Positions 2,259-24,454 of a DNA stretch of 24,454 nucleotides are shown piece after piece. The notes below the pieces were generated by a model that was not told the origin of the DNA, made no database searches, and saw only the letters and a program-made list of their open reading frames with translations. The position numbers and the translations under genes are program-made. Source of the DNA: a virus; IMG/VR virus record IMGVR_UViG_3300027782_000351, positions 1 to 24,454 of that record. One strand, given 5' to 3'. Within the stretch, counting starts at the first letter, position 1. Each line of letters starts with the position of its first letter.

Positions 2259-2540
2259 ATGGACATTAAAGAAACTAAAAAAAATATTATAAGAGCTGGG
2301 CGAAAAGCAGTCGATGAATTAGTCAAAGTAGCGGAGGAAGCAATTATAGACAGCGGTGATGATATATCGGCAGATAGATTAAAGAATGCAGCAGCGACTA
2401 AGAAATTAGCGATATTTGATGCATTTGAAATCTTAACACGCATTGAGATGGAAGAAAAACTAATCAATGATGAAGAATTTGCTAAAACAGATACCACGCA
2501 AAAAGTATTCAAAGGTTTTGCAGAAGGGAGATCTAAATAA
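2259..2540 (+). CDS. Putative terminase small subunit
   Basis: A 93-residue, highly charged helical protein directly upstream of the large terminase, with a one-base overlap (TAATG at 2538-2542). The middle reads 'ISADRLKNAAATKKLAIFDA' followed by an 'FEILTRIEMEE' helix, a pattern I recall from small proteins paired with this terminase type in marine phages. Small terminase subunits recognise phage DNA and regulate the motor. The size is at the low end for the family (often 100 to 180 residues), and no clear helix-turn-helix is visible. Assignment rests on position, helical content and the recalled pattern. The start follows a TTAAATAAA leader one base after the endonuclease stop. A long open frame on the opposite strand here is a shadow. 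Confidence 0.6.
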   Translation: MDIKETKKNIIRAGRKAVDELVKVAEEAIIDSGDDISADRLKNAAATKKLAIFDAFEILTRIEMEEKLINDEEFAKTDTTQKVFKGFAEGRSK

Positions 2541-4762
2541 TGTACGAACAAACTTTATATAAGATATTGCCCGGTTATATAACAAAGAAGACTTTAGAGC
2601 AAGGCAATAGGAATAAGAAATGGAAGTACGGCTATGATAAGGATAATGATATGGTTGTCATTAGCAAAACCGGAAAGATTGGTGAAATATACGAGATCCA
2701 AAACTTAAAGATTGCACTGCCTTTAGAGGAGAATGTATACAAAAGATCAGAAGTAAAAGAAGAACAATTTTGGCAACAGTTTGTTTATCCAAAAGAATTG
2801 GATAAATTAAAAAGCGTTTTTGATTGGAATAAACAGCCAGATCACTTTAAAGAGAGATGGTATGATTATATAGATAATGAGTTTAAATACAGGGACGAAG
2901 GTTTTTTCTATTATAGTAATGGAAAACCAACATATATAACTGGGACTCATTACATGTACCTGCAATGGAGTAAAATTGATGTAGGTGCACCTGACTTCAG
3001 GGAATCAAACAGATTGTTCTTTATATTTTGGGAAGCATGTAAAGCTGATCCAAGATGTTATGGAATGTGTTATTTAAAAAATAGACGTTCCGGATTTTCT
3101 TTTATGTCATCATCAGAGCTTGTAAATCAAGCAACTATGTCCAGTGACTCGCGCTTTGGTGTGTTATCAAAGTCTGGAGCTGATGCTAAGAAAATGTTTA
3201 CCGACAAGGTTGTACCAATCTCTGTTAACTATCCTTTCTTTTTCAAACCAATACAAGACGGTATGGATAGGCCTAAAACAGAATTGGCTTATCGTGTGCC
3301 TGCTTCAAAATTAACAAGAAGAAAGCTAGATTCAAATGAACAATTAGCGGAACTTGAAGGACTCGATACAACTATTGACTGGAAGAATACCGGAGACAAT
3401 AGTTATGATGGTGAAAAGTTAAAACTATTAGTTCACGATGAAAGCGGTAAATGGGAGCGACCAGATAATATCTTAAACAACTGGCGTGTAACAAAAACAA
3501 CATTAAGGTTAGGTAGTAGAATTATTGGTAAATGTATGATGGGGTCAACCTCAAATGCATTAGACAAGGGAGGAGAAAACTTTAAAAGACTTTATCATGA
3601 TTCAGACGTATCAAAAAGAAACCGCAATGGACAGACTAGTTCAGGATTATATAGTTTGTTCATACCTATGGAATGGTCGTACGAGGGATTCATTGATACT
3701 TATGGGTTACCTGTGTTCGATACTCCAGACAAACCAGTAAAAGGTGTTGATGGAAATTGGATTGAATATGGCGTTATTGAACATTGGCAGAATGAAGTTG
3801 ATGGTTTAAAACAAGACGCAGATGGATTAAATGAATACTACCGCCAGTTTCCAAGAACCGAACAGCATGCATTTAGAGATGAGACAAAGCAATCTTTGTT
3901 TAATCTTACAAAAATATACGAACAAATAGATTACAATGAAGATATACGGAACACAAGTGTAGTAACTCGTGGTAGTTTTCAATGGGAAGGCGGAGTGCTT
4001 GATACACGTGTTCAATTCTTTCCTCATAAAGATGGAAGGTTTTTAATTTCATGGGTTCCACCTAAATATCTTCAAAATCGAGTAATAATAAAGGATGGGC
4101 TAAAATATCCAGGCAATGAGCACTGCGGTGCATTTGGATGCGATAGTTACGATATATCAGGAACAGTTAATTCAAGAGGATCAAATGGTGCATTGCACGG
4201 ACTTACTAAATTTACTATGGAGGATATTCCTGCTAATCACTTTTTCCTCGAGTATATTGCCCGCCCTCAAACATCTGAAATATTTTTTGAGGATGTACTT
4301 ATGGCTTGCGTTTTTTATGGTATGCCGATTTTGGCGGAAAACAATAAACCGCGTTTGTTATATCATTTCAAAAGGAGAGGGTATCGCGGATTCTCTATGA
4401 ATAGACCTGATAAAGTTTGGAATAAATTATCTCCATTTGAAAAAGAAGTTGGCGGAATACCTAATTCATCTCAAGATATTATACAAGCACACGCTTCGGC
4501 TATTGAGACATACATAGAAGAGCATATTGGTTTTAAAGGGGATGATCATGGCACAATGTATTTCCAAAAAACGTTGGAAGACTGGGCAAAGTTTAATATA
4601 AATGCTAGAACAAATCATGATGCCTCCATCAGTTCAGGCCTAGCTATAATGGCGTGTAACAAACACAGATACGTGCCAAACAATCCAATACAAAAAGAAA
4701 AAATCTTACTAGGTTTTAAAAAATACAATAACGAGGGTTATAATTCACAAATAATAAAATAA
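2540..4762 (+). CDS. terL: Terminase large subunit (packaging ATPase-nuclease)
   Basis: A 740-residue packaging motor protein that powers DNA entry through the portal and cuts the concatemer. The ATPase half has an adenine-side region around residues 130 to 165, a P-loop position at about 180 to 187 reading 'KNRRSGFS', and a clear Walker B, 'LKLLVHDESGKW', with D300 and E301. The coupling motif follows as 'KCMMGSTSN' (about 331 to 339). The nuclease half starts near residue 530, with an acidic metal ligand candidate at D535 in 'GCDSYD'. The P-loop lacks the usual GKS/T lysine. Length fits the large terminases of crAss-like and related phages (about 700 to 800) more than the 500 to 600 of many others. 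The portal follows immediately at 4763. Confidence 0.9.
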   Translation: MYEQTLYKILPGYITKKTLEQGNRNKKWKYGYDKDNDMVVISKTGKIGEIYEIQNLKIALPLEENVYKRSEVKEEQFWQQFVYPKELDKLKSVFDWNKQPDHFKERWYDYIDNEFKYRDEGFFYYSNGKPTYITGTHYMYLQWSKIDVGAPDFRESNRLFFIFWEACKADPRCYGMCYLKNRRSGFSFMSSSELVNQATMSSDSRFGVLSKSGADAKKMFTDKVVPISVNYPFFFKPIQDGMDRPKTELAYRVPASKLTRRKLDSNEQLAELEGLDTTIDWKNTGDNSYDGEKLKLLVHDESGKWERPDNILNNWRVTKTTLRLGSRIIGKCMMGSTSNALDKGGENFKRLYHDSDVSKRNRNGQTSSGLYSLFIPMEWSYEGFIDTYGLPVFDTPDKPVKGVDGNWIEYGVIEHWQNEVDGLKQDADGLNEYYRQFPRTEQHAFRDETKQSLFNLTKIYEQIDYNEDIRNTSVVTRGSFQWEGGVLDTRVQFFPHKDGRFLISWVPPKYLQNRVIIKDGLKYPGNEHCGAFGCDSYDISGTVNSRGSNGALHGLTKFTMEDIPANHFFLEYIARPQTSEIFFEDVLMACVFYGMPILAENNKPRLLYHFKRRGYRGFSMNRPDKVWNKLSPFEKEVGGIPNSSQDIIQAHASAIETYIEEHIGFKGDDHGTMYFQKTLEDWAKFNINARTNHDASISSGLAIMACNKHRYVPNNPIQKEKILLGFKKYNNEGYNSQIIK

Positions 4763-7180
4763 ATGATTTATACTAATAGTAATAGTTCCTTTCCAAGTCA
4801 GGTAGTACCAGACGAGGTAAAACAAAGTTATGATTACGGTAAAGCCGTTGGTCGAGCCATTGAGAATGAATGGTTTAGAGGAGACAGGGTCGGCTGGGGA
4901 ACTGGAAACCGTTGGGGATCAAATTGGCAAAGATTCCACAACTTAAGACTATATGCTAGGGGTGAACAATCTGTTCAAAAATATAAAGATGAATTATCAA
5001 TTAACGGCGACTTATCTTATCTTAATTTAGATTGGAAACCAGTTCCCGTTATTCCTAAGTTTGTGGATATTGTAGTTAACGGTATATCTAGTAAAAACTA
5101 TGATATTAAAGCTTACGCGCAAGACCCGGAATCAATAAAAGAAAAAACAGAATACGCTAGAGCAATCATGGAAGACATGGCTGCAAAACAATTCTTGATG
5201 GAAATGCAACAAAAACTTGGTATAAATGGATTCTCACAGGATCCAGCTAAGTTACCTGAAGATCAAGAAGAGCTTGAAATTCATTTACAATTAAGTTACA
5301 AGCAAGGCGTTGAAATAGCAGAAGAGGAAGTTATTAATCAGGTACTTGCAACAAACAAATACGAGCTAATTAATAGGAGAATAAATTACGACCTAACAAT
5401 ATTAGGTATTGCAGCGGCAAAAACCAATTGGAACAAAGCAAATGGTATTGTATTAGAGTATGTCGATCCTGCTAATTTAGTTTACTCATATACAGAAGAT
5501 CCAAACTTTGAAGACTTATGGTATGTTGGTGAAGTTAAATCTATTAGTTTAGAAGAACTTAAAAAAGAGTTTCCTGATTTAACCACAGACGACTTAAAAG
5601 AAATAGAAAAATTTCCAGGTGATAACAATTATACTCGTAACTATTACGGTCAAGACTATGATAATTCCTCTGTACAAGTATTGTACTTTGAATATAAAAC
5701 GTATTCAGAACAAGTATTTAAAATCAAACAAACAGAATTCGGATTAGAAAAAGCATTAGAAAAGCCTGATACTTTTAATCCGCCTGCAAATGACAATTTC
5801 AGTAGAGTATCTAGGAGTATAGAGGTATTATACAGTGGCGCTAAGATATTAGGGTACGAAAAGATGTTACGTTGGGAAATGTCAGAGAATATGACTAGAC
5901 CAGCGGCCGACACAACAAAAGTAGAAATGAACTACACCATTTGTGCCCCAAGAATGTACAAAGGTAAGATAGAATCTTTAGTTAGTCGTATTACAGGGTT
6001 TGCGGATATGATTCAGCTTACGCATTTAAAACTGCAACAAGTACTATCAAGAATGGTGCCGGATGGAGTTTTTGTCGATGTAGACGGATTAGCAGAAGTT
6101 GATTTAGGTAATGGAACAAACTATAACCCGACCGAGGCATTAAACATGTACTTTCAAACGGGTAGTATTGTTGGTAGATCCCAAACACAAGACGGCACAG
6201 GTAATCCTGGTAAAATACCTATTCAAGAATTACAAACATCAAATGCAAATGGTAAGATACAGTCTTTAATTTCTACTTACCAATACTATTTGCAAATGAT
6301 TAGAGATGTGACCGGATTGAATGAAGCAAGAGATGGTAGTACGCCTGATCCAAAAGCTTTAGTAGGTTTGCAAAAAATGGCAGCAGCAAATTCAAACACG
6401 GCGACCCGTCATATTACACAATCAAGTTTATATTTAACTTTACGTTTATGCGAAAATATATCATTGAGAGTGGCGGATTCATTAAAGTTTCCATTGACTG
6501 CACAATCATTACGTGAAAGTATATCAACATTTAATGTTAAAACGCTTGAGGAGTTAATGAATTTAAACCTGCATGACTTTGGTATATTCTTAGAATTAGA
6601 ACCAGATGAAGAAGAGAAAGCGCAGTTAGAACAAAATATACAAATAGCATTACAATCAGGCGGTATTGATCTTGAAGATGCAATTGATTTAAGACAAATT
6701 AAAAATCTTAAGTTAGCTAATCAATCTTTAAAATACAAAAGAAAGAAAAAACAAGAAAGAGATCAAGCAAACCAACAAGCAAACATACAAGCACAAGCGC
6801 AAGCAAATGCACAACTAGCGGAACAAACCGCTATGTCAGAAGTGCAGAAACAACAAGCATTAGCGCAAACAGAAATACAGATTGAGCAAGCAAAAGCGCA
6901 ATTCGTAATACAAAGATTACAACAAGAGATGCAAATCAAGCAACAATTGATGGCGCAAGAATTCCAATATAATCAGCAACTAGCTCAAATGCAAGTAGAT
7001 ATGCAAAAGCAAAAGCTTAACAGTATGGAAGACCGCAAAGACAGTCGCGTTAAAATGCAAGCCACTCAACAAAGTGAATTAATTGATCAAAGAAAAAATG
7101 ATACATTACCAAAAAACTTTGAATCACAATTTGATAATGTTAAAAGCGGCTTTGGCTTGGGTACTCTTGATCAAATGTAA
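4763..7180 (+). CDS. Portal protein
   Basis: An 805-residue portal starting on the base after the terminase stop. Twelve copies normally form the ring through which DNA enters and leaves the capsid. The strongest family mark is at about residues 517 to 552: 'TGLNEARDGSTPDPKALVGL' followed by 'QKMAAANSNTATRHI', which I recall in portals of marine, Cellulophaga and crAss-like phages. From about 655 to 775 the chain is a long Q/A/K-rich helix ('QAQAQANAQLAEQTAMSEVQ' is typical) that predicts a coiled coil. This resembles the C-terminal barrel of P22-type portals, which extends into the head. Length and position between terminase and scaffold agree. The C-terminus is polar, with no membrane segment. 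Confidence 0.88.
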   Translation: MIYTNSNSSFPSQVVPDEVKQSYDYGKAVGRAIENEWFRGDRVGWGTGNRWGSNWQRFHNLRLYARGEQSVQKYKDELSINGDLSYLNLDWKPVPVIPKFVDIVVNGISSKNYDIKAYAQDPESIKEKTEYARAIMEDMAAKQFLMEMQQKLGINGFSQDPAKLPEDQEELEIHLQLSYKQGVEIAEEEVINQVLATNKYELINRRINYDLTILGIAAAKTNWNKANGIVLEYVDPANLVYSYTEDPNFEDLWYVGEVKSISLEELKKEFPDLTTDDLKEIEKFPGDNNYTRNYYGQDYDNSSVQVLYFEYKTYSEQVFKIKQTEFGLEKALEKPDTFNPPANDNFSRVSRSIEVLYSGAKILGYEKMLRWEMSENMTRPAADTTKVEMNYTICAPRMYKGKIESLVSRITGFADMIQLTHLKLQQVLSRMVPDGVFVDVDGLAEVDLGNGTNYNPTEALNMYFQTGSIVGRSQTQDGTGNPGKIPIQELQTSNANGKIQSLISTYQYYLQMIRDVTGLNEARDGSTPDPKALVGLQKMAAANSNTATRHITQSSLYLTLRLCENISLRVADSLKFPLTAQSLRESISTFNVKTLEELMNLNLHDFGIFLELEPDEEEKAQLEQNIQIALQSGGIDLEDAIDLRQIKNLKLANQSLKYKRKKKQERDQANQQANIQAQAQANAQLAEQTAMSEVQKQQALAQTEIQIEQAKAQFVIQRLQQEMQIKQQLMAQEFQYNQQLAQMQVDMQKQKLNSMEDRKDSRVKMQATQQSELIDQRKNDTLPKNFESQFDNVKSGFGLGTLDQM

Positions 7181-8392: not shown

Positions 8393-9847
8393 ATGGCAAA
8401 TGTTACGCCTACCTTTGGGTCAATTACACCCTCACAGAAACAGCAAGCGCTGTCTACAAATTATTTAAACTTTACCGATCCTAACAACGCGGATTTCTCA
8501 TCTTTTGCGCAACAATATTTGCCAGAGATTTATGAAGCTGAAGTAGAACGTTACGGAAACAGAACTCTTTCTGGATTCTTACGTATGGTTGGTGCTGAAA
8601 TGCCAATGACTTCAGATCAAGTTATCTGGTCAGAACAAAACCGTTTGCATGTAGCTTACGATGATGTTGAAATTACTGATGGAAACACTATCACAATTCA
8701 AAACATCGATTTGTCTCCAGCAAACCCAGCTGATTACGTTGCTAACGTATTGTCAATCAACCAAACAATTGTTATTATGAACCCTACTACAGGCGTTGAA
8801 TTAAAAGCAATTGTAACAAGCAAACCAACCCCTGGAAGCGGTGTAGTAGATGTTGCATCTTATACTACAGCAAACTTGGTTACTGGAGCTTTCACAGCCG
8901 GTGACGTTGTTAAAATCTTTGTTTTTGGTTCTGAGTACGCAAAGGGATCAACATTAACTGGTGACGATTACCAAAGCATTACACCTTCATTTACTCAATA
9001 TTCAAACTCTCCAATTATTATCCGTAACAAATATGCGGTTAATGGTTCTGACACAGCTCAGATCGGATGGGTTGAAGTTGCTACAGAAGATGGAACAGGT
9101 GGTTACTACTGGTATTTGAAAGCTGAATCTGAAACTCGTTTGCGTTTTGAAGATTACTTAGAAATGGCTTTGATTGAAGGTGAATTAGCTACACCTACTT
9201 CTGCTGCTGCAAACTTAGGTACGCCTAAAAAAGGTACTCAAGGTTTATTCTCAGCTGTACAAGAAAGAGGTAACGTATTGAACAACTTCTCTGTAGCTGG
9301 TGGATTAACTGAATTTGACAGTATCCTTAAAAACTTAGATACTCAAGGAGCTATTGAAGAAAACATGCTTTTCTTAAACCGTGCTACCTCACTTGACTTT
9401 GATGATATGCTTGGTTCATTATCTTCTGGAGCTAATGGTGGTGTTGCTTACGGGTTGTTTGAAAACTCCTCTGAAATGGCATTGAATTTAGGTTTCTCTG
9501 GTTTCCGTCGTGGATCTTACGATTTCTACAAAACTGACTGGAAATACTTAAATGATGCTTCTACTCGTGGAGCTGTAGCAAACTCTGGAATTGATGGAGT
9601 TTTAATTCCTGCTGGAACATCTACAGTTTACGATCAAATCTTAGGAACTAACATCCGTCGTCCTTTCTTACACGTTCGTTATAGAGCTGCACAAGCTGAT
9701 GACCGTCGTATGAAATCTTGGGTAACAGGATCTGTTGGTGGAGCATACACTTCTGACTTAGATGCAATGGAGGTACACTTCTTATCTGAAAGATGTTTAT
9801 GTGTTCAAGGAGCTAACAACTTCGTATTGTTTACATCTGTAGACTAA
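8393..9847 (+). CDS. Major capsid protein (HK97-fold expected)
   Basis: A 484-residue protein in the canonical slot after the scaffold. The N-terminal arm is polar, followed by a helical region 'YLPEIYEAEVERYGNRTLSG' (residues about 43 to 62) and beta-rich segments. Residues about 95 to 190 look like an inserted beta domain ('NPTTGVELKAIVTSKP', 'FTAGDVVKIFVFGSEYAKGS') that could be a decoration or E-loop-linked insertion. 'GYYWYLKAESETRLRFEDYL' starts the central helix region. Arginine is coded by CGT in 15 of 19 cases, while neighbours prefer AGA, which fits a very highly expressed gene. No propeptide cleavage site is evident. A strong hairpin follows the stop by ten bases. The name rests on position, size, codon use and recalled family likeness. 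Confidence 0.85.
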   Translation: MANVTPTFGSITPSQKQQALSTNYLNFTDPNNADFSSFAQQYLPEIYEAEVERYGNRTLSGFLRMVGAEMPMTSDQVIWSEQNRLHVAYDDVEITDGNTITIQNIDLSPANPADYVANVLSINQTIVIMNPTTGVELKAIVTSKPTPGSGVVDVASYTTANLVTGAFTAGDVVKIFVFGSEYAKGSTLTGDDYQSITPSFTQYSNSPIIIRNKYAVNGSDTAQIGWVEVATEDGTGGYYWYLKAESETRLRFEDYLEMALIEGELATPTSAAANLGTPKKGTQGLFSAVQERGNVLNNFSVAGGLTEFDSILKNLDTQGAIEENMLFLNRATSLDFDDMLGSLSSGANGGVAYGLFENSSEMALNLGFSGFRRGSYDFYKTDWKYLNDASTRGAVANSGIDGVLIPAGTSTVYDQILGTNIRRPFLHVRYRAAQADDRRMKSWVTGSVGGAYTSDLDAMEVHFLSERCLCVQGANNFVLFTSVD

Positions 9848-15900: not shown

Positions 15901-18189
15901 TCAGGAGCGCCAATAATAGCAACAGACGCTCAGATAATATCTGTTTTTGATAATTCAATTCCAGCAAACCCCTGCGCTAGCCGTTTTGCAATTGAACCAG
16001 CCGGGTTAGGTCAATTTAGAATAAAGATAGCTGATAGTTTTATTTTTAATCACGATGCACTTACTGCTGGATTATTTAATTTCGAAATACAGTTGCAATA
16101 TAATGGTGTATGGTATCCATTTTCATTCCAAATACCATTAGGCAATAGAGCTCCAAGATTTACAAACGAACCTTTTGATAACACTATAAATAGAACAACA
16201 ACTATTATAGAAACATTAACAGCGGTAAACGGATCTTTTACGAATGCTACCACTGATTTATATTGGGAAATAACAAGCGGTAATGACGAAGGTTATTTTG
16301 CTATAAATGATTATACAGGAGAATTTTCATTAATTCGTTCTGATATACCAAATGGGATATATACTATTGGCGCGTCCGTTACAGACGCAACTGATTTCAC
16401 ACAAGTTCCGCCATTAAAATTAAATGGAGTTGGAGCATTTCAAAGCTTAACTGATACTACAACTTTTACTATAGTTGTTGTAGGTGATCCATTAACTCCT
16501 TGCTTGCGCGATTTTGACTCGGGGGTATTGTGTTATCAAAGTAGGCCTTATGGTTGGGGCCCGGGTTGGACGATAAACAATACGCCAAAAGGTTTTGGCG
16601 CGGTATATGTTGGAAAAAAAGACATAATGCCATTAGCAGATGGTATTACATGGCCAGATCTGCCAAGTTGTCCGTGGAATGGACAAAAATACCAAAATGC
16701 ATTAAATGTAGCAAAAGAAAATGGCTGCACAACATTAACTGGATTAACACAAGGTACTATGCGTTGGGATGTTAAATTGCATGTTGGGATTAGCGACACA
16801 ACTCAAGGACCTTATTGTATTGGTTCTACTAGACCAGAAAATGTATGGACCGGAGGCAGAGTCAGAACTATTTTATGGTATAGAGAAAACGAAAACGCGG
16901 TTTGGCAAACAGCGACAGATGATAATGGTTTCAATTGTTCTATAGAAGCAACTCCTCCGCCTGTTGGTTTTTATGGTGCTCAGCAATTATGGGGTTGGAA
17001 TACGCCAGCTCGCTTGCAAATTGATCAAGCAATTGAACCAAGGGACGCTTATCGCTTACCTGGTTCTATTTATACCGGAAGTGTTGTAACAAGAGGTTTT
17101 TCTTTTTTTACATCAACTCCTGGCGAGTACTGCTTATGTGTTTATGAAGAAGATTCTTTTTATGACAACAGTGGAGTCTTGGGTGCGCAATGTTTTAACC
17201 CAGCTAGCGTAGGAGAAGGAATAGGACCTTATGTAAGTGTTGAGATTAGTGATGCAAATTTTACATATCCACTAGGGGTTCAAACTAGAACAGCTTATAA
17301 ATATAATTTAAGATTAGCAGAACCATTTGATGATGCGCCAACCGCTTTAGCGTCTAATCAACAAATTTCTAATAAAGGAGAATATGCTTCTCGTCCCGCT
17401 CCGTTATATACATTTGAACTTCAATTAACAGTTGCAGAAGATCAAGTAGAGCCAGATAAAGTAGTTGTCACACAAGCCAGTTTGGATGCAATACAACCCG
17501 CATTATTAGTGCCTGGAGTTAGATGTATAAACGATGACCATATAAACCCTGGCACTGTAAGAAAAATAGCAAATATATCAGGTACAACTATAACATTTGA
17601 TGGCAATACCGATTCTTATTTTGTAGCCAATGATACTCTTATTGCAACATATAATGTGCTTGAAAATGACACTGAAGTCTGGTCTGACAGTGCTGATGGT
17701 CTTAATGTAAAACAATTTTATACAGATTCAAGTCTGCTTACCACATGGGAACCGCCAATGCCAGATAAATTTTACATTTTTAAACAATTAGATAAAGATT
17801 ATAACTCTGGTGATACTCCACCAGACGAAGTGTGGCCAGGAACTACCTCGCCTTACTCGGTTTTAGGATACGCAATGAGTCATCCTTGGTGGGGAGCTAA
17901 ATTTGATGCTAATGGTTCGTTAGTGTCTATTTCTCAAGCAAATCCTCCAAGAGCTATTAATACCCCGGTACTTGGAACTATAGACGCTGGAGGTAATACA
18001 GTGAACATAGTAACTTGTTATGCTCAATCAAATTTCATTACACCTAATACACCATCAAATAACAATACGTATGGCACCGAAAATGTTGACAAACTTACTA
18101 GCATTCCGTTTGGTTATGCTGCTAAAAATGGTGGTTATTATGCGGCTAATATATATTTAGATTTAGATTACGTGCCTTGGGTTCCTTAG
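12916..18189 (+). CDS. Very large tail structural protein with cadherin-like domain
   Basis: A 1757-residue protein, the largest complete one here. Recalled family blocks in order: 'NKDLDDRLIPNGQYRDALNI' (about 14 to 33), 'YKTLTEDQTTRVTDIVPVRA' with 'LAQEITGNRVMYGNYY' (about 400 to 440), and 'YLGVYETRPDESLLDLFWET' (about 916 to 935). These occur in tail or nozzle-type proteins of marine phages. Residues about 990 to 1075 are an Ig-like beta domain. Residues about 1080 to 1190 look cadherin-like ('ITSGNDEGYFAINDYTGEFS'), a fold used for adhesion. From C1196 on, the chain is rich in Trp, Gly and Cys, possibly a receptor or glycan contact. Small beta modules sit near residues 192-257 and 1515-1580. 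There is no signal peptide. The likely place is the short tail, but the exact part is not shown. Confidence 0.75.
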   Translation: MAEIKNTFLQSKMNKDLDDRLIPNGQYRDALNIQIGKSEQDDIGALQSVLGNSNLPIPADDSDLICIGFFMDNQNNRIYRFLTNYIDANPNLINYPDAAAKMKISVYDINSQTYTTLVSGIFLNFSANNSSYINGVNLIENLLFWTDNRNQPRKINVNTALVNPGYYTTETQISVAKYAPVEPISLIKKSVTTVTNVISSNEIEVDDATGIVVGMTIISGAIDSTEFVTVYEVDGNNIILYQDTTLINIGDTLTFLISTMTDQSGDENWPGDPDFLEDKYVRFSYRFRYDDGEYSLMAPFTQIAYIPRQKGYFINGDETAAYRSTIVRWMENNVNNIELLIPLPDTGLNIVNSYKITELDILYKESNSNAVKVIETVTVQRIASESPNINVFVRPYQSQKPYKTLTEDQTTRVTDIVPVRALAQEITGNRVMYGNYYSTYTAPSSINYNVTVSPKTFYFTSFIEYPNHTLKQNRNYQVGFILSDKFGRQSPVILSTVDLTTVGGGAVPVLYGGSTVYAPYVSKEAGYPPTRDWNGNALLVLLNSVITSNRNIPNGTPGLYAESIGGVGGFTVTYSTVTGNAYVFGLDPSVSNSPPKEGDYLRGEYTDYVEILTLYNVGDNYFLTTDGQANNLYNFNPANDPDIKYAYRLNQIGWYSYKIVVRQQEQDYYNVYLPGMLNAYPLNQTYGSQVIYTGDPTTPTLENGINTSDFPTNEFNKTAHIVLINDNINKVPRDLTEVGPDQKQYRSSVELFGRVENDVTLLTFEVDPVVDDPSASQFIYDSVMLPNIFPQISVGDAINYESPEPWYANTVITEILEDTPTVGKCTIKFSPDNITVEDFDTISILLGKNKQYYPTRKPDTVSSIANSRDFDFLPNSVENIIGTAGLNLYQLQTNPMIGRVSTISGIGIDGQYMVPYLGVYETRPDESLLDLFWETATTGLISDLNWDVLTGSDAPVALNDFEYLFFEDQDKNGPDSGTGEDTSPYITENIYAINNSGAPIIATDAQIISVFDNSIPANPCASRFAIEPAGLGQFRIKIADSFIFNHDALTAGLFNFEIQLQYNGVWYPFSFQIPLGNRAPRFTNEPFDNTINRTTTIIETLTAVNGSFTNATTDLYWEITSGNDEGYFAINDYTGEFSLIRSDIPNGIYTIGASVTDATDFTQVPPLKLNGVGAFQSLTDTTTFTIVVVGDPLTPCLRDFDSGVLCYQSRPYGWGPGWTINNTPKGFGAVYVGKKDIMPLADGITWPDLPSCPWNGQKYQNALNVAKENGCTTLTGLTQGTMRWDVKLHVGISDTTQGPYCIGSTRPENVWTGGRVRTILWYRENENAVWQTATDDNGFNCSIEATPPPVGFYGAQQLWGWNTPARLQIDQAIEPRDAYRLPGSIYTGSVVTRGFSFFTSTPGEYCLCVYEEDSFYDNSGVLGAQCFNPASVGEGIGPYVSVEISDANFTYPLGVQTRTAYKYNLRLAEPFDDAPTALASNQQISNKGEYASRPAPLYTFELQLTVAEDQVEPDKVVVTQASLDAIQPALLVPGVRCINDDHINPGTVRKIANISGTTITFDGNTDSYFVANDTLIATYNVLENDTEVWSDSADGLNVKQFYTDSSLLTTWEPPMPDKFYIFKQLDKDYNSGDTPPDEVWPGTTSPYSVLGYAMSHPWWGAKFDANGSLVSISQANPPRAINTPVLGTIDAGGNTVNIVTCYAQSNFITPNTPSNNNTYGTENVDKLTSIPFGYAAKNGGYYAANIYLDLDYVPWVP
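13489..13686 (+). other. Small beta module, copy 1 (inside the 1757-residue gene)
   Basis: Residues about 192 to 257 form a compact beta unit: 'IVVGMTIISGA', then 'VTVYEVDGNNIILY' and 'NIGDTLTF'. It interrupts the flow between the conserved N-terminal blocks. The pattern 'vG..I.G......V..v.g..I.l.....i..Gd.LTF' is shared with the next gene. Confidence 0.5.
17458..17655 (+). other. Small beta module, possible copy 2 (C-terminal, same gene)
   Basis: Residues about 1515 to 1580 carry the same layout: 'LLVPGVRCI', 'TVRKIANISGTTITFDGN', 'FVANDTLIATY'. Likeness to copy 1 is in pattern, not in long identity, so common origin is only suggested. Confidence 0.4.
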
Positions 18190-18229: not shown

Positions 18230-19804
18230 ATGGCAGCAGTATTAGAATTAAAATATTTTAACTCATTCTGGTTGAAGAAAATGCAATCCATTACCCACGT
18301 AAAAAATACTACGGGGGTATTGGATGGAGCTGTAACTACCGATACTTTGGTTTTAACAGAAGCAAATGATTTTATAGGCGTTGGACAACAAGTGACCGGC
18401 GGACCAACAAGTGGAATTACTACAAATCCGTCTCCGGTTGTTGTATACGTAAATGGCGCAACTATTACGTTAGACTCATCTCAGTCTATTGCGGATGGAG
18501 AAGAATTAACATTTGGGCCTATAACTAACTTTGATCATATACCGGCGGCTTATGAATCAACACTTCCGGAAGGAACAGATTGGTACATTGAAGAAGCAAG
18601 GATTAGAGGCGGGTATAACAATACTATTGTTGATTTAGGCGTAAAAGCTTATATAGTTGAAGACATCAATGGGCAGCAATACCGCGGAAGTTCAATTATA
18701 TACTCTGGTATTTATAATTCCAGAACCGGTGTAAATAATACAAATCAATTTTCTACTGCGCAAGACATAACAAAAAGCGTTGATCCATCTAATGGAACAA
18801 TTCAAAAGTTATATTCAGAAAATACAAATTTAATTATATTCCAAGAATCAAAAGTAAATCAGGCGTTGATTGATAAGAATGCAGTTTATTCTGCTGACGG
18901 ACAACCAATGACAACTTCAGGCGGATTAGTGATAGGTCAAATACAAGCTTATGCTGGTAATTATGGAATATCAACCAACCCGGAAAGTTTTGCTGTTTAT
19001 GGGTATAGAAAATACTTCGTAGATAGAAATCAAAATGCAGTACTAAGATTATCACAAGATGGCATAACCGAAATATCTGCTTATGGTATGTTGGATTACT
19101 TTAGAGATAATTTATCTGCAATTAGTAATAGCGGCCGAATAGTTGGAATGTGGGACATGCATAATAAGCAATACTTATTATCAATGCAGCCCCTTGAAAA
19201 TACATCCGGTCAAAAACCAACACCTACTCAAGCTACAACAGTTGCTTTTGATGAAGATATTAATGGTTGGACAAGTAGATTTTCATTCAAACCAGAACTT
19301 GGCGGAAGTTTAAGAAATAATTTTTACACTTTTAAATCCGGTGGTATATGGGAACATTATTCAACATCTGTTAATAAAGGTACTTTTTATAATGTTAATA
19401 CAAATTCAACAGTTACTCTTGTATTTAATGCTTCGGCTTCAGAGGTTAAAAATTTTAGTACATTAAATTACGAGGGTACAACAGGGTGGGAATTAATTTC
19501 ATTAGTAACAGACACAGATACATCTGTACCTATACAGCCGTTTTCTCAAACATATAATTTAGCGAGCATAGAAAATCAATTATTTTCAAATAATTTTAAA
19601 CGTAAAGAAAATAAATACTTCGCAAATATAATGAATAACTCGCCTGCTGGAAGCGGGGATGTTGTTTGGGGTCAATCCATGACAGGGATAAAAGGGTTTT
19701 ATGCTGTAGCAGATATGCAAATAAATAACTTAACGTATGGATCCCCATCAAGCCGATCAGAGTTGTTTGCAGTCTCAACTGAATATGTAAATTCATCATA
19801 CTAA
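18230..19804 (+). CDS. Tail structural protein (nozzle/propeller-like, putative)
   Basis: A 524-residue beta-rich protein starting 'MAAVLELKYFNSFWLKK'. After an inserted beta module (residues about 36 to 95), family blocks follow: 'WYIEEARIRGGYNNTIVDLG', 'SIIYSGIYNSRTGVNNTNQF', 'KLYSENTNLIIFQESKVNQA', 'AGNYGISTNPESFAVYGYRK' and 'NAVLRLSQDGITEISAYGML'. I recall these from virion proteins of marine and crAss-like phages, often next to or fused with the family of the preceding gene. Repeated beta strands with aromatic turns suggest a propeller-like fold, as in podovirus tail nozzles, but this is inference. The spacing to the 1757-residue gene is 40 bases with no hairpin, so the two are probably co-transcribed. 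The stop overlaps the next ATG by one base. Confidence 0.7.
   Translation: MAAVLELKYFNSFWLKKMQSITHVKNTTGVLDGAVTTDTLVLTEANDFIGVGQQVTGGPTSGITTNPSPVVVYVNGATITLDSSQSIADGEELTFGPITNFDHIPAAYESTLPEGTDWYIEEARIRGGYNNTIVDLGVKAYIVEDINGQQYRGSSIIYSGIYNSRTGVNNTNQFSTAQDITKSVDPSNGTIQKLYSENTNLIIFQESKVNQALIDKNAVYSADGQPMTTSGGLVIGQIQAYAGNYGISTNPESFAVYGYRKYFVDRNQNAVLRLSQDGITEISAYGMLDYFRDNLSAISNSGRIVGMWDMHNKQYLLSMQPLENTSGQKPTPTQATTVAFDEDINGWTSRFSFKPELGGSLRNNFYTFKSGGIWEHYSTSVNKGTFYNVNTNSTVTLVFNASASEVKNFSTLNYEGTTGWELISLVTDTDTSVPIQPFSQTYNLASIENQLFSNNFKRKENKYFANIMNNSPAGSGDVVWGQSMTGIKGFYAVADMQINNLTYGSPSSRSELFAVSTEYVNSSY
18335..18514 (+). other. Small beta module, copy 3 (inside the 524-residue gene)
   Basis: Residues about 36 to 95: 'FIGVGQQVTGGPTSGITT', 'VVVYVNGATITLDSSQS', 'IADGEELTF'. 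It separates 'FNSFWLKK' from 'WYIEEARIRGGYN', which I recall as close neighbours in relatives. It therefore looks like an insertion and matches copy 1 in pattern. Confidence 0.5.
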
Positions 19805-20277
19805 TGACAAATGAAATTCAATTAAATACAGAAAATAGAGTAATAAATAAAGACTTTATCGGCAAAGTCACCGCACTTGAACAAGAAATGTTAAACAGTG
19901 ATCTTCCCGGTATAGTTAAAGGTAATTCTGACAGCTTTCCATTAACTCATTCTTTTTCAGACGGAGTTTATATACGCGAAATGTTTATGGCTAAAGGAGG
20001 GTTTGTTATTGGAAAATTGCATAAATATAATCATACATGGTTCTTACTTAAAGGGGAATTAGAGGTGGCTACAGAAGATGGCGTAAATCATTATATAGCT
20101 CCATGTTATGTAAACGCACCATGCGGAACAAAAAGAGTAATACATGCTATTGAAGATTCAATTTTTATCAACGTGCATGCAAATCCCCATAATATAACTG
20201 ACATAGAAACTTTGGAAAAAGAGTTGGTATGTGATTCATATGAGGATTACGAAGAATATAAACTTTTAAATAAATAG
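19804..20277 (+). CDS. Cupin-fold phage protein
   Basis: A 157-residue protein with a cupin-type beta-barrel at about residues 45 to 128: 'DGVYIREMFMAKGGFVIGKL', H73 and H77 in 'HKYNHTWFLLKGELEVATED', then 'APCYVNAPCGTKRVIHAIED' and H125 in 'FINVHANPH'. H73, H77, H125 and perhaps H114 are candidate metal ligands, though the standard cupin glutamate is not obvious. 'GTKR' after the central turn is shared with small cupin-like proteins that I recall in many phages, whose task is unknown (assembly factor, minor virion part or enzyme). The acidic C-terminal tail (CDSYEDYEEY) is also typical. It overlaps the upstream stop by one base and precedes the ejection-type genes by three. Confidence 0.75.
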   Translation: MTNEIQLNTENRVINKDFIGKVTALEQEMLNSDLPGIVKGNSDSFPLTHSFSDGVYIREMFMAKGGFVIGKLHKYNHTWFLLKGELEVATEDGVNHYIAPCYVNAPCGTKRVIHAIEDSIFINVHANPHNITDIETLEKELVCDSYEDYEEYKLLNK

Positions 20278-20280
20278 AAT

Positions 20281-21258
20281 ATGAGTTTTATAGGAGTAGC
20301 AATTGCCGGAGCGGGTATCGTAGGTAGCGTTGCAACCGGCATAATGGGACAAAATGCAGCCGATAAAATGGCTAGGGCTTCCGCAGCGGATAGAGCAAGG
20401 TTAGAAGCTGAAATAGCTGCGTTTGAAAAAAGTAGACAAGCTATTATAAATCCGTACGCAAGTTTTAAAAATGTTAGCGGACTAGCAAAAGATTTATCTG
20501 GAATGGTTAGTAACCCATATGCAAATTTAGGTGTTGCAACTCAAGCGGCTAAATTTGAGGCAGAAGAAATTGACTTATCATTGGCAAACACATTAGATAC
20601 ATTGAGAGAAACTGGAGCAAGCGCTGGCGGAGCAACTGCATTAGCTATGGCTGCTTTAAAAAGTAAACAAGGTATATCATCTAGCATTGAACAACAAGAG
20701 GCCCAGAATGAAAAATTAAGAGCGCAAGGTGAGCAGCAATTACAGCAAATGCAAATGGCTGAAGCTCAAAGAATACAAAACTTACAAATAACTGAAGCAC
20801 AAAGATTACAACAAGCTGGCGCGGCAGGAAAACAATTTATGTTCCAAGCTCAAGAAGAAAGAGATCAAGCTAAATTAGATAGGTTAGCCGGGTTATCTGA
20901 CTTTGCGGCTAATCAACAAGCTCAAGCTCAATCCGACAGTTTATCTGCAATGACAGGTATGATTGGCGGGATAACAAGCTCTTTGGCCGCCGGGGCTTCC
21001 GCTTACGCTTCCACACAGAACACACCGCCACCTCCACCTCCATCAGATAGACGACTTAAGAAAAATATAAAACCAATGGGTGTTTCTAAAAATGGATTTA
21101 ACATTTATTCATTTGAATATAAAAATGTTAATTTTGGCAAAGGTGTTTTTCAAGGCGTTATGTCTGACGAGATCCCGTCAGAAGCTGTAATAAAAGGGAC
21201 TGATGGATACGATAGAGTAAATTATTCTATGTTGGACGTAGAATTTAAACAAATATAA
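20281..21258 (+). CDS. Putative ejection / internal virion protein with C-terminal S74 chaperone domain
   Basis: A 325-residue protein. Residues 2 to about 23 are a Gly/Ala-rich hydrophobic helix ('FIGVAIAGAGIVGSVATGIM'), as in podovirus ejection proteins. The middle is helical and Q/A-rich, with an imperfect repeat ('MAEAQRIQNLQITEAQRLQQ'), probably a coiled coil. A second Gly/Ala hydrophobic run (about 225 to 245) precedes a proline tract. The last 71 residues start 'SDRRLKKNI' at S255 and include 'GFNIYSFEYKN', 'GVMSDEI' and 'DRVNYSMLDVEFKQI'. These are marks of a short S74 intramolecular chaperone, which aids trimer folding and cuts itself off at the Ser. Cleavage would fall between P254 and S255. 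S74 is usual on tail fibres, so its place here is notable; a fibre-like part remains an alternative. Confidence 0.7.
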   Translation: MSFIGVAIAGAGIVGSVATGIMGQNAADKMARASAADRARLEAEIAAFEKSRQAIINPYASFKNVSGLAKDLSGMVSNPYANLGVATQAAKFEAEEIDLSLANTLDTLRETGASAGGATALAMAALKSKQGISSSIEQQEAQNEKLRAQGEQQLQQMQMAEAQRIQNLQITEAQRLQQAGAAGKQFMFQAQEERDQAKLDRLAGLSDFAANQQAQAQSDSLSAMTGMIGGITSSLAAGASAYASTQNTPPPPPPSDRRLKKNIKPMGVSKNGFNIYSFEYKNVNFGKGVFQGVMSDEIPSEAVIKGTDGYDRVNYSMLDVEFKQI

Positions 21259-21263
21259 TAAAT

Positions 21264-22787
21264 ATGTCATACGCAAATCCACAAAGACAAGTTATATCAA
21301 ACGCACCGGCTTTCCAGAATTTACAGCAGAATATAACATCTGCGGTAAGCACTGTTGCCGGAGCGGTTATTAAACGAGCAGAACAAGAACGGGAAGACCA
21401 GAAAAATAAAGAGCTTCGAGAGTTTAAAGAGTATAAGGAATTGTTTGCCGCAAGTACGGGAGCGACTCAAAATTTTGGAGAAGCCGCTTTAAAAACTCAA
21501 AATGAAAGCAAACTTCGCGTTGATCTTACCTCTGATACTTTAGCTGGTAAAAAAGAAATTTTTAATGCGTCAATGCAAATTAAACCCGGTACAGCGTCTG
21601 ATACTTTAGCGACATCACAACAAATTGTTGCAGAGATTAACGCTTATCCAAGTGTTGTTACAAAAGGACTTGCTCTTTTAGCGGGAACAATTGACACAAC
21701 AAAAACTGGTATGACGAATAATAGAATGTCGTCATTAATAACTGATAATCCTACTGATAATAATAAAGCTTTAATAATAGTTAGCACTGGAAATCCTGAA
21801 AGTGGAAACATTACTGTTGACCGTAGTACTGGATGGAATAATCCTACGTATGTTGTTGAAGCAATAGACCCAACAACTAAGCAAAAAGTTACGGGGCGAT
21901 ACCTTCATTCTGAATTAGTAAAAGCAGAAGCGGCAGGTGGTATAATGCAATTAGTTCCGGATGTTAATGCTAGTTTAGAATCTACTAAAAAAAGAGCTAC
22001 CGGAATATTTCAAGTAGTTACTACTACCGGAAAAAAAGGAGAGACCATACAAGAAACAGACGGTTCTGTTCTACCACAATTCTTAGATCTAGCCAATGCT
22101 AAACCTGACCCAAATAATCAAACTACGGTTGAGAGCTTAGATGGCAAAACATTGTTGAAAAAAGGAATAGTAGTTGCTCCTATTAACAAGGAAGCAATTG
22201 CTAAAAACCCTGATTTTATAGCTTCGACCAACGCGATTGCCGAAGGCATATTAACTAATTTTAGTGAGGCTTATTCTTTGAATAACGATGTAATGGTTAA
22301 AGCTCTTGGTAAAGACGCTGCTTTAACTAAACCAGCTGAGGGCATTACAGACGAATGGAAAGATAAATTTAAAGAAAACTGGAAAGCTTATACTTTAAAA
22401 AATATTCCCGATACACAACCAATCAAAAATGAAGCAGGCGAATTTGTAACAGAAACATTGAAAGCCGAGAAACCAGTTAAACCGCCTAAAGGTGGCGGAG
22501 GAGGGAAACCAACAATGGATATGAAGATTGCAAGTAGAAATTATAGAATACTTACTGGACAAAATAAACATGAGCCAATTGTTGATCCATTAAATAAAAA
22601 AATACAATACGCATATAGTGCCGATGGCAAATTCCGTAAGCAAGAATACATGTCCGGAGTATCCGGAGCCCCTGGCATGTGGGTAGATGCAGCTGATGGC
22701 CCTGGAAATACATACACTAATATTAAGGAATTTTACAATGAACATTCCGATTGGTTTCAAAAACCAGCGTTACCAACTAAAAAATAA
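21264..22787 (+). CDS. Putative internal virion (ejection) protein
   Basis: A 507-residue protein starting six bases after the S74-bearing gene. Residues about 15 to 80 are helical, with a short Ala/Val-rich stretch ('AVSTVAGAVI') and a strongly charged coil ('KRAEQEREDQKNKELREFKE'). The rest is soluble and mixed, rich in Thr, Asn and Ala. A glycine linker (G410 to G414) separates a C-terminal domain of about 90 residues with 'ASRNYRILTGQNK' and a Trp/Gly-rich end. I do not recognise an enzymatic motif and see no lysozyme or transglycosylase residues. The function is inferred from position between two other likely ejection genes. In P22- and T7-type phages, three such proteins leave the head to form a DNA channel through the envelope. 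Confidence 0.5.
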   Translation: MSYANPQRQVISNAPAFQNLQQNITSAVSTVAGAVIKRAEQEREDQKNKELREFKEYKELFAASTGATQNFGEAALKTQNESKLRVDLTSDTLAGKKEIFNASMQIKPGTASDTLATSQQIVAEINAYPSVVTKGLALLAGTIDTTKTGMTNNRMSSLITDNPTDNNKALIIVSTGNPESGNITVDRSTGWNNPTYVVEAIDPTTKQKVTGRYLHSELVKAEAAGGIMQLVPDVNASLESTKKRATGIFQVVTTTGKKGETIQETDGSVLPQFLDLANAKPDPNNQTTVESLDGKTLLKKGIVVAPINKEAIAKNPDFIASTNAIAEGILTNFSEAYSLNNDVMVKALGKDAALTKPAEGITDEWKDKFKENWKAYTLKNIPDTQPIKNEAGEFVTETLKAEKPVKPPKGGGGGKPTMDMKIASRNYRILTGQNKHEPIVDPLNKKIQYAYSADGKFRKQEYMSGVSGAPGMWVDAADGPGNTYTNIKEFYNEHSDWFQKPALPTKK

Positions 22788-22809: not shown

Positions 22810-24454
22810 ATGAAGTTATACAAAAGCACCGAAGGATACGAATATACAGAAGACGAAGTTCTAACAGCGGCTAAAGAAAGCAATATGTCTCTTGACGATT
22901 ATGTTGCCGAATTTGGAATTACACCATCTACTCAAGGTGAGCCGGGAAAGAAAAAGCCTGTTGCGGAAAAGGGTGCGCCTGCAACAGGGAAAGCAAAAAG
23001 TACGGCATCCAAGCCGGCACCTACTTCTTCGGCTTCCAGAAAGAAACTATTTAAAGAAGAAGTTCAGCCACAAACGCAAACTGATGGAACGTTTTTTGCA
23101 AAACCAAAAATACTAAAACCCAAAGTTGCAAAAGAACCTACAATAAAAGAGAAGGTAGAAGAGGGTAAACAAATTTTGCAAGAAGCAAAAGAAATAAACA
23201 AACCAAAACGTGAATTAAAAGCTAAAATATCATTGCCTTCAGAAGAAGATATTTTAGATATATCAACAAATGTTCAGGGTGTTGAATATGATAAATTAGA
23301 ACCTGAAGAAAAATTATATGTAGACAATAAATCTGCAGACATATTGCAAAAAGCTTATGGTGAAGGCGCTGAATATGATTTATCCCCATCGGAAATAGAA
23401 CTAAAGTCAAGAGAAATTTTATCCAAAGCAAAGCAAACAAAGAAAACAATTGAAGAGGAATCTTACACAAGTAAATTACTCAATGTAGATCTTCTAAAAG
23501 GTTTAAATTATTTAGGTGAAGCATTTGCTTCTGTGCCTGAAACTATTTATAATGTTTTTTCTTTACCTCAAAATGCCTATGCTGCCGTATCTGGGAACAA
23601 AGACTGGGCAGAGAGCGCTAAACAATTTAAAAAAGAAAGAGGAATAGAAAATCCCATAATGGATAATTTTATTGCCGAACAGGAGCGTCTTGGCAAGATG
23701 CAAACTATATATAACAATGCGAACTACGATTCAACTAGCATAACAGAAAATATCGGCGATGGTAATTATGTTGATGCTTTTAAATTAATGGGTAGTGGTT
23801 TAGCAGAAAGTGCCCCTATGAGTATAGCCATGATGGCTGGTGGTGCAGAATTAAAATTAGCAGAATTAGCGGCAGGATCAACAGCATTACTAGCCGGTCC
23901 AAATATAAGACAACAAGAAGAGGAAAACCCAGAGCAATCAGAATTAGCTTCTGTTATTAAAGGATTTGGAATGGCTGGAGCAGAAAGTGTTTTTTCAGCA
24001 ATTGGAGAAGGTAGTCTTGGTAAAGTATATAAGGATATAATCAAGAAGGAAGGGGCTGAAATAGGTTCTAAAATATTTAAAGACGGATTAGTTACCATGT
24101 ACCAATCCGCCCTTAAAAAGTTTGGCGCACCAGCTGCAATGCTTGGCGAGGGTATTGAGGAGGTAGCTACTACCATTACTCAAAACATGATTAACAACAA
24201 GAATCCTTTTGAAGGCGCCTTAGACTCTTTTGCTTTAGGCGTTGGTGGTGGTGGATTATATGGATCCCCACTAACTATAGCTAAAGGCATAAGTGGTTTT
24301 AAAGACGGTGTAACCGTACATAAAATAAATAAACAGTTAAAAACTGAAAATATAAATAATTTAGTTACTGCATTTAAACCTGAATTTCAATCAAGTCCAG
24401 CTAAAATAAAGGCAGCAATAATACCAGGTTCTATTAAAATACTTGATAATCAAG
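22810..24454 (+). CDS. Large internal virion-type protein, 5' part (runs off the right edge)
   Basis: An open frame from the ATG at 22810 to the last base, at least 548 codons with no stop, so the 3' end lies outside the window. It opens 'MKLYKSTEGYEYTEDEVLTA' and 'LDDYVAEFGI', a start I recall in very large internal virion proteins of marine phages. Residues about 45 to 140 are low-complexity, rich in K, P, A and E. A helical region follows. Around residues 330 to 365 there is a hydrophobic, Ala/Gly/Met-rich segment ('ESAPMSIAMMAGGAELKLAE'), and further Gly/Ala-rich helices with 'EGIEEVATTITQNMINN' lie at about 445 to 465. This style fits an ejected membrane-active or cargo protein. Shorter open frames inside it on either strand are shadows. 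Confidence 0.65.
   Translation, partial: MKLYKSTEGYEYTEDEVLTAAKESNMSLDDYVAEFGITPSTQGEPGKKKPVAEKGAPATGKAKSTASKPAPTSSASRKKLFKEEVQPQTQTDGTFFAKPKILKPKVAKEPTIKEKVEEGKQILQEAKEINKPKRELKAKISLPSEEDILDISTNVQGVEYDKLEPEEKLYVDNKSADILQKAYGEGAEYDLSPSEIELKSREILSKAKQTKKTIEEESYTSKLLNVDLLKGLNYLGEAFASVPETIYNVFSLPQNAYAAVSGNKDWAESAKQFKKERGIENPIMDNFIAEQERLGKMQTIYNNANYDSTSITENIGDGNYVDAFKLMGSGLAESAPMSIAMMAGGAELKLAELAAGSTALLAGPNIRQQEEENPEQSELASVIKGFGMAGAESVFSAIGEGSLGKVYKDIIKKEGAEIGSKIFKDGLVTMYQSALKKFGAPAAMLGEGIEEVATTITQNMINNKNPFEGALDSFALGVGGGGLYGSPLTIAKGISGFKDGVTVHKINKQLKTENINNLVTAFKPEFQSSPAKIKAAIIPGSIKILDNQ

Follow-up and report, generated by a model that had tools for sequence, protein, structure and literature searches.

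The window analysed here, i.e. the whole 24,454-base virus record, is by its gene content part of a crAss-like phage, since it encodes a terminase, a portal protein and a capsid-type protein with matches to head-and-packaging families of PHROG, together with a protein bearing the Crassvirus muzzle C-terminal domain. The genes and features considered below are as follows:

2540..4762, + strand: terminase large subunit (phrog_6681, E 1.8e-165)
4763..7180, + strand: portal protein (phrog_6547, E 2.1e-150)
8393..9847, + strand: probable major capsid protein (virion structural protein, phrog_13704, E 5.1e-94; the name MCP derives from gene order)
18230..19804, + strand: muzzle-like tail protein (crAss_MUZ_C, PF25729, E 8.1e-7)
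19804..20277, + strand: 157-aa cupin-like protein (Cupin_2 only at E 0.11)
20281..21258, + strand: predicted ejection/cargo protein 1 with a C-terminal mini-S74 domain, 325 aa (ORF, synteny, PHROG 6121)
20281..21042, + strand: predicted ejection-protein body, residues 1-254 (AlphaFold2 model; 514 relatives in viral contigs)
boundary 21042/21043, + strand: predicted scissile bond P254-S255
21043..21258, + strand: mini-S74 domain, residues 255-325, and stop codon (Pfam, domain alignment, AlphaFold2 model, Foldseek)
21043..21045, + strand: Ser255 codon, predicted nucleophile (invariant in 226/226 distinct domains; equivalents S587 in MYRF and S911 in endoNF)
21058..21060, + strand: Lys260 codon, predicted general base of the Ser-Lys dyad (invariant in 226/226 distinct domains)
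21264..22787, + strand: 507-aa protein, by position the probable second ejection/cargo protein
22810..24453, + strand: beginning of a giant protein that runs off the end of the window, by position the probable third ejection/cargo protein

The best named-phage relatives of the muzzle-like ORF infect Flavobacterium, Cellulophaga, Tenacibaculum and Maribacter. Upstream of this ORF the window encodes a 1757-aa protein (12916-18189), the place of which is spanned by a single long gene in phi38:1 and elemoA; the muzzle may therefore have been split in the window's lineage. The 325-aa ORF lies two genes downstream of the muzzle. Judging from the sequences compared, the slot preceding it is conserved and holds exchangeable small enzymes, cupin-like in the window and GNAT-like elsewhere: Pfam GNAT was found in 7 of 67 upstream proteins at E<=0.01 (examples of GNAT-like slots are L003 5491-5895, L091 7710-8108, L093 10135-10560, L096 and L099), and a GNAT-like acetyltransferase is also annotated in that slot of podovirus-like phage records. 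No Pfam or PHROG family was matched by the 507-aa protein. Many counterparts of the third cargo slot in relatives exceed 1000 aa. P0002 and P0003 had no match among phage records.

Gene order and annotation make a cargo/ejection protein much the likeliest identity of the 325-aa product. Synteny was analysed in 68 ejection-type loci, obtained from 80 of the 139 domain relatives by leaving out seven non-ejection proteins (L037, L040, L043, L044, L053, L075, L087), near-duplicates, the window and phage records. The next gene is directly downstream in 67 of these loci (median class 500-650 aa, with lower values at contig ends), and a further gene, mostly very large, follows in 60. A recognisable crAss muzzle was detected just upstream in 37 of the 67 loci of the window type, window included. 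In isolated relatives the slot of the window gene is annotated as virion structural protein; in phi38:1, Gundel and elemoA it is filled by bodies of 200-225 aa lacking S74. Outside crAss-like phages, a short S74 domain ends, or sits within, proteins whose annotations read ejection, DNA transfer/injection or internal virion protein. These observations agree with the sequence-only reading, which had placed the domain on a likely ejection protein. That reading regarded the combination of S74 with an internal-type protein as unusual; it appears less odd now, as a short S74 domain on the first ejection protein recurs across many podovirus-like phages. The PHROG family phrog_598 ('DNA ejection') was matched by 1 of 20 bodies (1.2e-5), the window body not being among the matches, and the body profile found only chance matches and no relative among PDB chains. 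A search of the open-access literature retrieved no paper that connects S74 with ejection proteins or internal virion proteins of this kind, which does not imply absence from print; the accessible part of PMC10783043 describes acetyltransferase and chaperone-of-endosialidase phams common to alphaproteobacterial phage clusters, and there makes no link to ejection.

In the AlphaFold2 model the body comprises a hydrophobic Gly/Ala N-terminus, helices at residues 20-50 and 87-111, and a long Q/A-rich helix at 116-228, which corresponds to the Gly/Ala hydrophobic N-terminus and Q-rich coil noticed earlier; it ends with a low-complexity linker finishing PPPPPP. The suggestion that this might be an unusual fibre-type protein was not supported, and we regard an external protein of this kind as extremely improbable. 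S74 domains usually cap fibres and spikes, and the seven proteins named above, out of the 80 listed domain relatives (80 of 139), are of other kinds, but such a role is at variance with the helical body, the nearby muzzle, the ejection-type gene order, the virion structural protein occupying this slot in the isolated relatives and the annotation of the domain relatives.

Within that group of seven, the mini-S74 of L037, L040, L043, L044 and L053 is carried by fibre- or collagen-like proteins. The last of these (L053 2157-2864) is a 236-aa collagen-like Gly-X-Y protein ending in a mini-S74 domain, which shows that ejection proteins are not the only carriers of the module. In L075 (2721-5213) and L087 (2736-5213), a segment ending ...YYANGILTHN, which we take to be Hint/intein-like, directly precedes the mini-S74, so that two putative self-processing modules adjoin.

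The known functions of S74/ICA domains are those of a trimerising chaperone in tail spikes and of the protease in MYRF. The presence of an S74-type domain on the last 71 of the 325 residues (255-325; coding 21043-21255, with the stop codon extending to 21258), proposed earlier from its Ser-Asp-x-x-LKKNI start, was confirmed by profile comparisons and structure prediction. This segment begins with SDRRLKKNI at 21043 and has the C-terminus ...EFKQI. The scores of the window protein (16.3 bits, E 0.012) and of the domain alone (19.2 bits) against PF13884 are below the Pfam cut-off of 22; this family was matched by 51 of the 52 members of the window-domain alignment at E<=1 (best 1.2e-5). Residues 136-317 were matched by PHROG 6121 'virion structural protein' (E 3e-7). 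A domain search of viral contigs yielded 139 relatives, of which 80 were kept for analysis, and a scan of genome contigs pointed to two places, both in MAG contigs.

The domain is the most confident part of the AlphaFold2 full-protein model (pLDDT 91-97 in blocks of ten residues running from 261 to the chain end; the mean for the domain modelled alone is 71.5). In Foldseek searches of BFVD the top match, at E 8.7e-7, bears the name 'Intramolecular chaperone auto-processing domain containing protein'; further matches are an 'Internal virion protein' (E 1e-5) and A0A516LUV2, which is 48% identical and superposes with an rmsd of 1.0 over 69 columns. The predicted fold of the globular part is thus shared with viral proteins named as S74-type domains. 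For both the full and the domain model, neither Foldseek against the PDB nor VIA-align returned a solved ICA structure. The latter produced mainly helical proteins and kinases, a listing that counts as no evidence for a new fold. Only chance matches were found in PDB sequences with the window protein (phmmer) and with the domain profile, and comparison of the domain set with NCBIfam brought up no S74 match.

On the evidence of sequence and model, the window domain is a mini-S74 and not a canonical ICA chaperone, because both the C-terminal alpha4 coiled coil and the upstream triple beta-helix are missing. It ends 10 residues past its V-N-Y motif. The number of residues after the V-D-Y motif is 24-39 in 8/8 fibre-type S74 records and 1-12 in 11/11 ejection-type records, counted with a loose pattern, so that an individual count could err by a few residues. 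The alpha4 coiled coil, present as a tail in all eight fibre-type domains, is absent from the window domain; instead of a triple beta-helix stalk, the AlphaFold2 model is helical and then unordered, with strands only within residues 255-325. According to PMC8326128, the alpha4 coiled coil is the chief trimerisation force of MYRF, and cleavage requires the trimer.

The Ser/Lys dyad of the S74 domain has been retained. PMC8326128 gives S587 of MYRF and S911 of endosialidase NF as the counterparts of Ser255, and K592 and K916, respectively, as those of Lys260. In 226 distinct domains (283 domains from 236 loci, among the matches listed), the only invariant positions are Ser1, Asp2 (D256 in the window, codon 21046-21048) and Lys6, the domain start being set by the profile in this count, while in the earlier alignment of the crAss-like set S255/D256 had been located via the letters SD. 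The conservation profile was built from such domains, although loss of Ser alone or Lys alone should still be detectable. Structural Gly, Tyr and Val positions vary among the same 226 domains. The pattern S-D-x-x-x-K is also present in 8/8 fibre-type domains. Residue 1 of the conserved part is the nucleophile itself, and the residue preceding it is unconserved in the crAss-like set. Since Ser, Asp and Lys alone are invariant, catalysis looks to be under selection.

A search of viral contigs with the body only identified 514 relatives. Among the best 80 of these, 78 have a complete 3' end, and the module is present in 7 and absent from 71 of them, which indicates that it is optional. The nearest body relative of the window among the matches listed, L001, is module-free at 87% identity, and its 45-kb record contains no S74 copy elsewhere. 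Relocation of the module to another gene was considered for module-free genomes, but none of the 13 such records searched contained a match; the 17 module-bearing records each carry one domain.

A tree of 116 bodies (45 with the module, 71 without) requires at least 27 gains or losses, at least 19 of them forced by well-supported branches. It leaves out 25 module-bearing proteins too distant from the window body, as well as L134 and L136, which were excluded from the tree and the length counts because their 3' ends are cut, the numbers barely shifting without them. The two tree sets come from different searches and their ratio is meaningless; the proportion of 7/78 is derived from the body search alone.

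Comparison of lengths showed that, on average, the module starts where module-free relatives end: the distance from a body landmark to the Ser (module-bearing, n=45) or to the C-terminus (module-free, n=71) has a median of 53 aa in both sets (Mann-Whitney p 0.43). In the pairs L010/L175 and L052/L117, with bodies 87-90% identical, the junction offsets are 1 and 0 residues; across the 27 closest pairs with identities of at least 60% they range from -37 to +30 residues, 10 of them within 5. In DNA alignments drawn for four pairs, the module forms an extra block between the related body end and the conserved start of the downstream gene. The GC content is 30.5% in the module and 43.0% in the body; as a sign of foreign origin this is uninformative, the body being Gly/Ala-rich.

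The optional nature of the module (7/78), its repeated gain or loss and its placement at the natural end of module-free relatives argue against a required folding chaperone, and the existence of relatives lacking it rules out that it is required for folding. The same data bear on the idea, one of two options in the sequence-only reading, that the domain acts as a trimerising chaperone for an internal coiled coil and then departs. This was not supported and is in our opinion improbable. What S74 does on fibres and in MYRF (PMC8326128, PMC3742443) and the long Q/A-rich helix upstream of the domain would suit such a chaperone; the missing alpha4 trimer helix would not, nor would the 71 of 78 close body homologues (best 80 of 514) without the domain, its absence from homologues 87-90% identical in body, or L001, with no copy elsewhere in its record.

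Frequent gain and loss, together with the extra-block DNA pattern, could also be expected of a mobile or selfish module, whose self-removal would make C-terminal insertion harmless and for which conserved DNA would serve as a recombination foothold. The variety of carriers fits this view (ejection proteins, the collagen-like L053, the fibre-like L040, L043 and L044, and the position behind a Hint-like segment in L075 and L087), as does the weak correlation of domain and body identities (Mantel r 0.36, 45 proteins). This correlation, however, lies above all 999 permutations, so the module is also inherited, and the domain scans relied on exact motifs lying within it, which biases domain identities upwards and favours look-alike domains. 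We consider a selfish origin very improbable.

In other phages the module occurs within ejection polyproteins. A scan for the phage-type domain identified 348 relatives, and the 79 of them that were kept comprise 22 C-terminal, 56 internal and one cut module; the stop codon lies within the contig in 47 of the 56 internal cases. The segment before a polyprotein module is most often 270-317 residues long, like the free-standing proteins. Among 36 segments following a module, transglycosylase (7), cell wall hydrolase (5) and GH108 (3) domains were recognised, and domains of these types are also encoded by some downstream genes of the C-terminal class. Two mini-S74 domains were found in 29 of the 79 listed proteins (79 of 348), and the polyproteins reach about 2000 aa. 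Two-module examples are L241, L233, L234, L249, L212 and L239. In L006 (MW202675, 8173-11730), a 1185-aa ORF annotated as internal virion protein D combines the first ejection protein with a mini-S74 and a transglycosylase-like region.

Homologues of the first part (80 of 503 listed) carry the module at its end in 61 cases and lack it in 19. Of the module-free polyproteins, 16 continue as one ORF, none stops at that point and three are cut by the contig end. L006 and L227 likewise have no second internal module, and their flanking polypeptide is continuous. A need for the module to separate the polyprotein parts was thus not supported, and these sequences indicate that a cut in the polyproteins, if made, is dispensable.

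Fusion of the polyprotein irrespective of gain or loss of internal modules, as well as the missing trimerising helix, would be understandable if the domain were left uncut, or its cut were immaterial, and it acted as a small folded anchor binding the portal, a cargo protein or a host factor, and swapped together with this partner. We consider this rather unlikely, as it leaves unexplained the invariance of Ser and Lys in 226/226 domains, in which nothing structural is invariant except the neighbouring Asp.

The reading to which we give an even chance is that the tail cuts itself off between P254 and S255, so that the 254-aa ejection protein in its ancestral form remains. It is suggested by (i) the invariant dyad, (ii) the nucleophile being the first residue of the conserved part, (iii) the position of the module at the natural C-terminus and (iv) its easy gain and loss; the 27 gains or losses agree with a module that leaves the mature protein almost unchanged. 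While the cargo proteins assemble around the portal, or afterwards, S255 would attack the P254-S255 bond with K260 as the base, the 71-residue tail would depart, and the mature 254-aa protein would be equivalent to that of relatives that never had a tail. The subunit contacts needed for cleavage would be provided by the assembled helical bodies and not by the domain. Against self-removal stand the requirement of MYRF-type cleavage for a trimer (PMC8326128), the window domain having no trimer helix, the lack of solved ICA structures among the Foldseek and VIA-align matches of both models and the spread of the junction offsets in the 27 pairs, and against essential cleavage the module-free polyproteins that remain fused.

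A broader proposal can be put forward only tentatively, i.e. that the trimer-helix-free S74 autoprotease is an optional processing module, activated by ejection-protein assembly, which serves as a C-terminal tail of the first ejection protein and as single or double internal cutting points of giant polyproteins, freeing the first protein from the peptidoglycan-degrading part. If true, a widespread helix-free S74 domain with an invariant dyad on probably injected proteins would separate the protease from the chaperone, and ejection proteins, including crAss-like ones, would gain a processing step visible to virion proteomics. The repeated gain and loss of the module in relatives makes its purpose a testable puzzle, for which natural pairs with and without it (L010/L175, L052/L117, window/L001) are ready-made controls.

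Several known systems resemble the window protein in part. The slot of the window gene is occupied by bodies of similar size in Cellulophaga phi38:1 (gp99), Flavobacterium elemoA (gp23) and Tenacibaculum Gundel (gp72), although these proteins (200-225 aa) lack the S74 tail; a phmmer comparison within a set of nine linked gp72 to the window protein (E 5.8e-8). The gene of the crAss001 cargo protein gp45 presumably follows the muzzle gene, but gp45 is larger (about 91 kDa) and no sequence relation to the window body was found among PDB chains. As described in PMC10172136, gp45 is stored in the capsid and tail.

Peptidase S74/ICA (PF13884; endosialidase NF, MYRF) shares with the window domain the Ser-Asp...Lys start, a mid-domain Gly and V-[DN]-Y near the end, and the predicted fold is common to the window domain and viral proteins of that name. 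In contrast to the canonical form, the window domain has only 71 residues, lacks the alpha4 coiled coil and the upstream triple beta-helix, is optional and is borne by a helical ejection protein.

Podovirus-like ejection proteins of Pseudoalteromonas phage H6/1 (gp17), Vibrio phage 199E37-1, Sulfitobacter phage pCB2047-C and Rhizobium phage RHph_I3_18 are annotated as ejection, DNA transfer, virion structural or S74 structural proteins. Only their S74 part matches the window protein, their hosts are Proteobacteria and no crAss muzzle is annotated; yet, as in the window, each is the first protein of the ejection set, ends in a mini-S74 and is followed by a large cargo or lysozyme-like gene.
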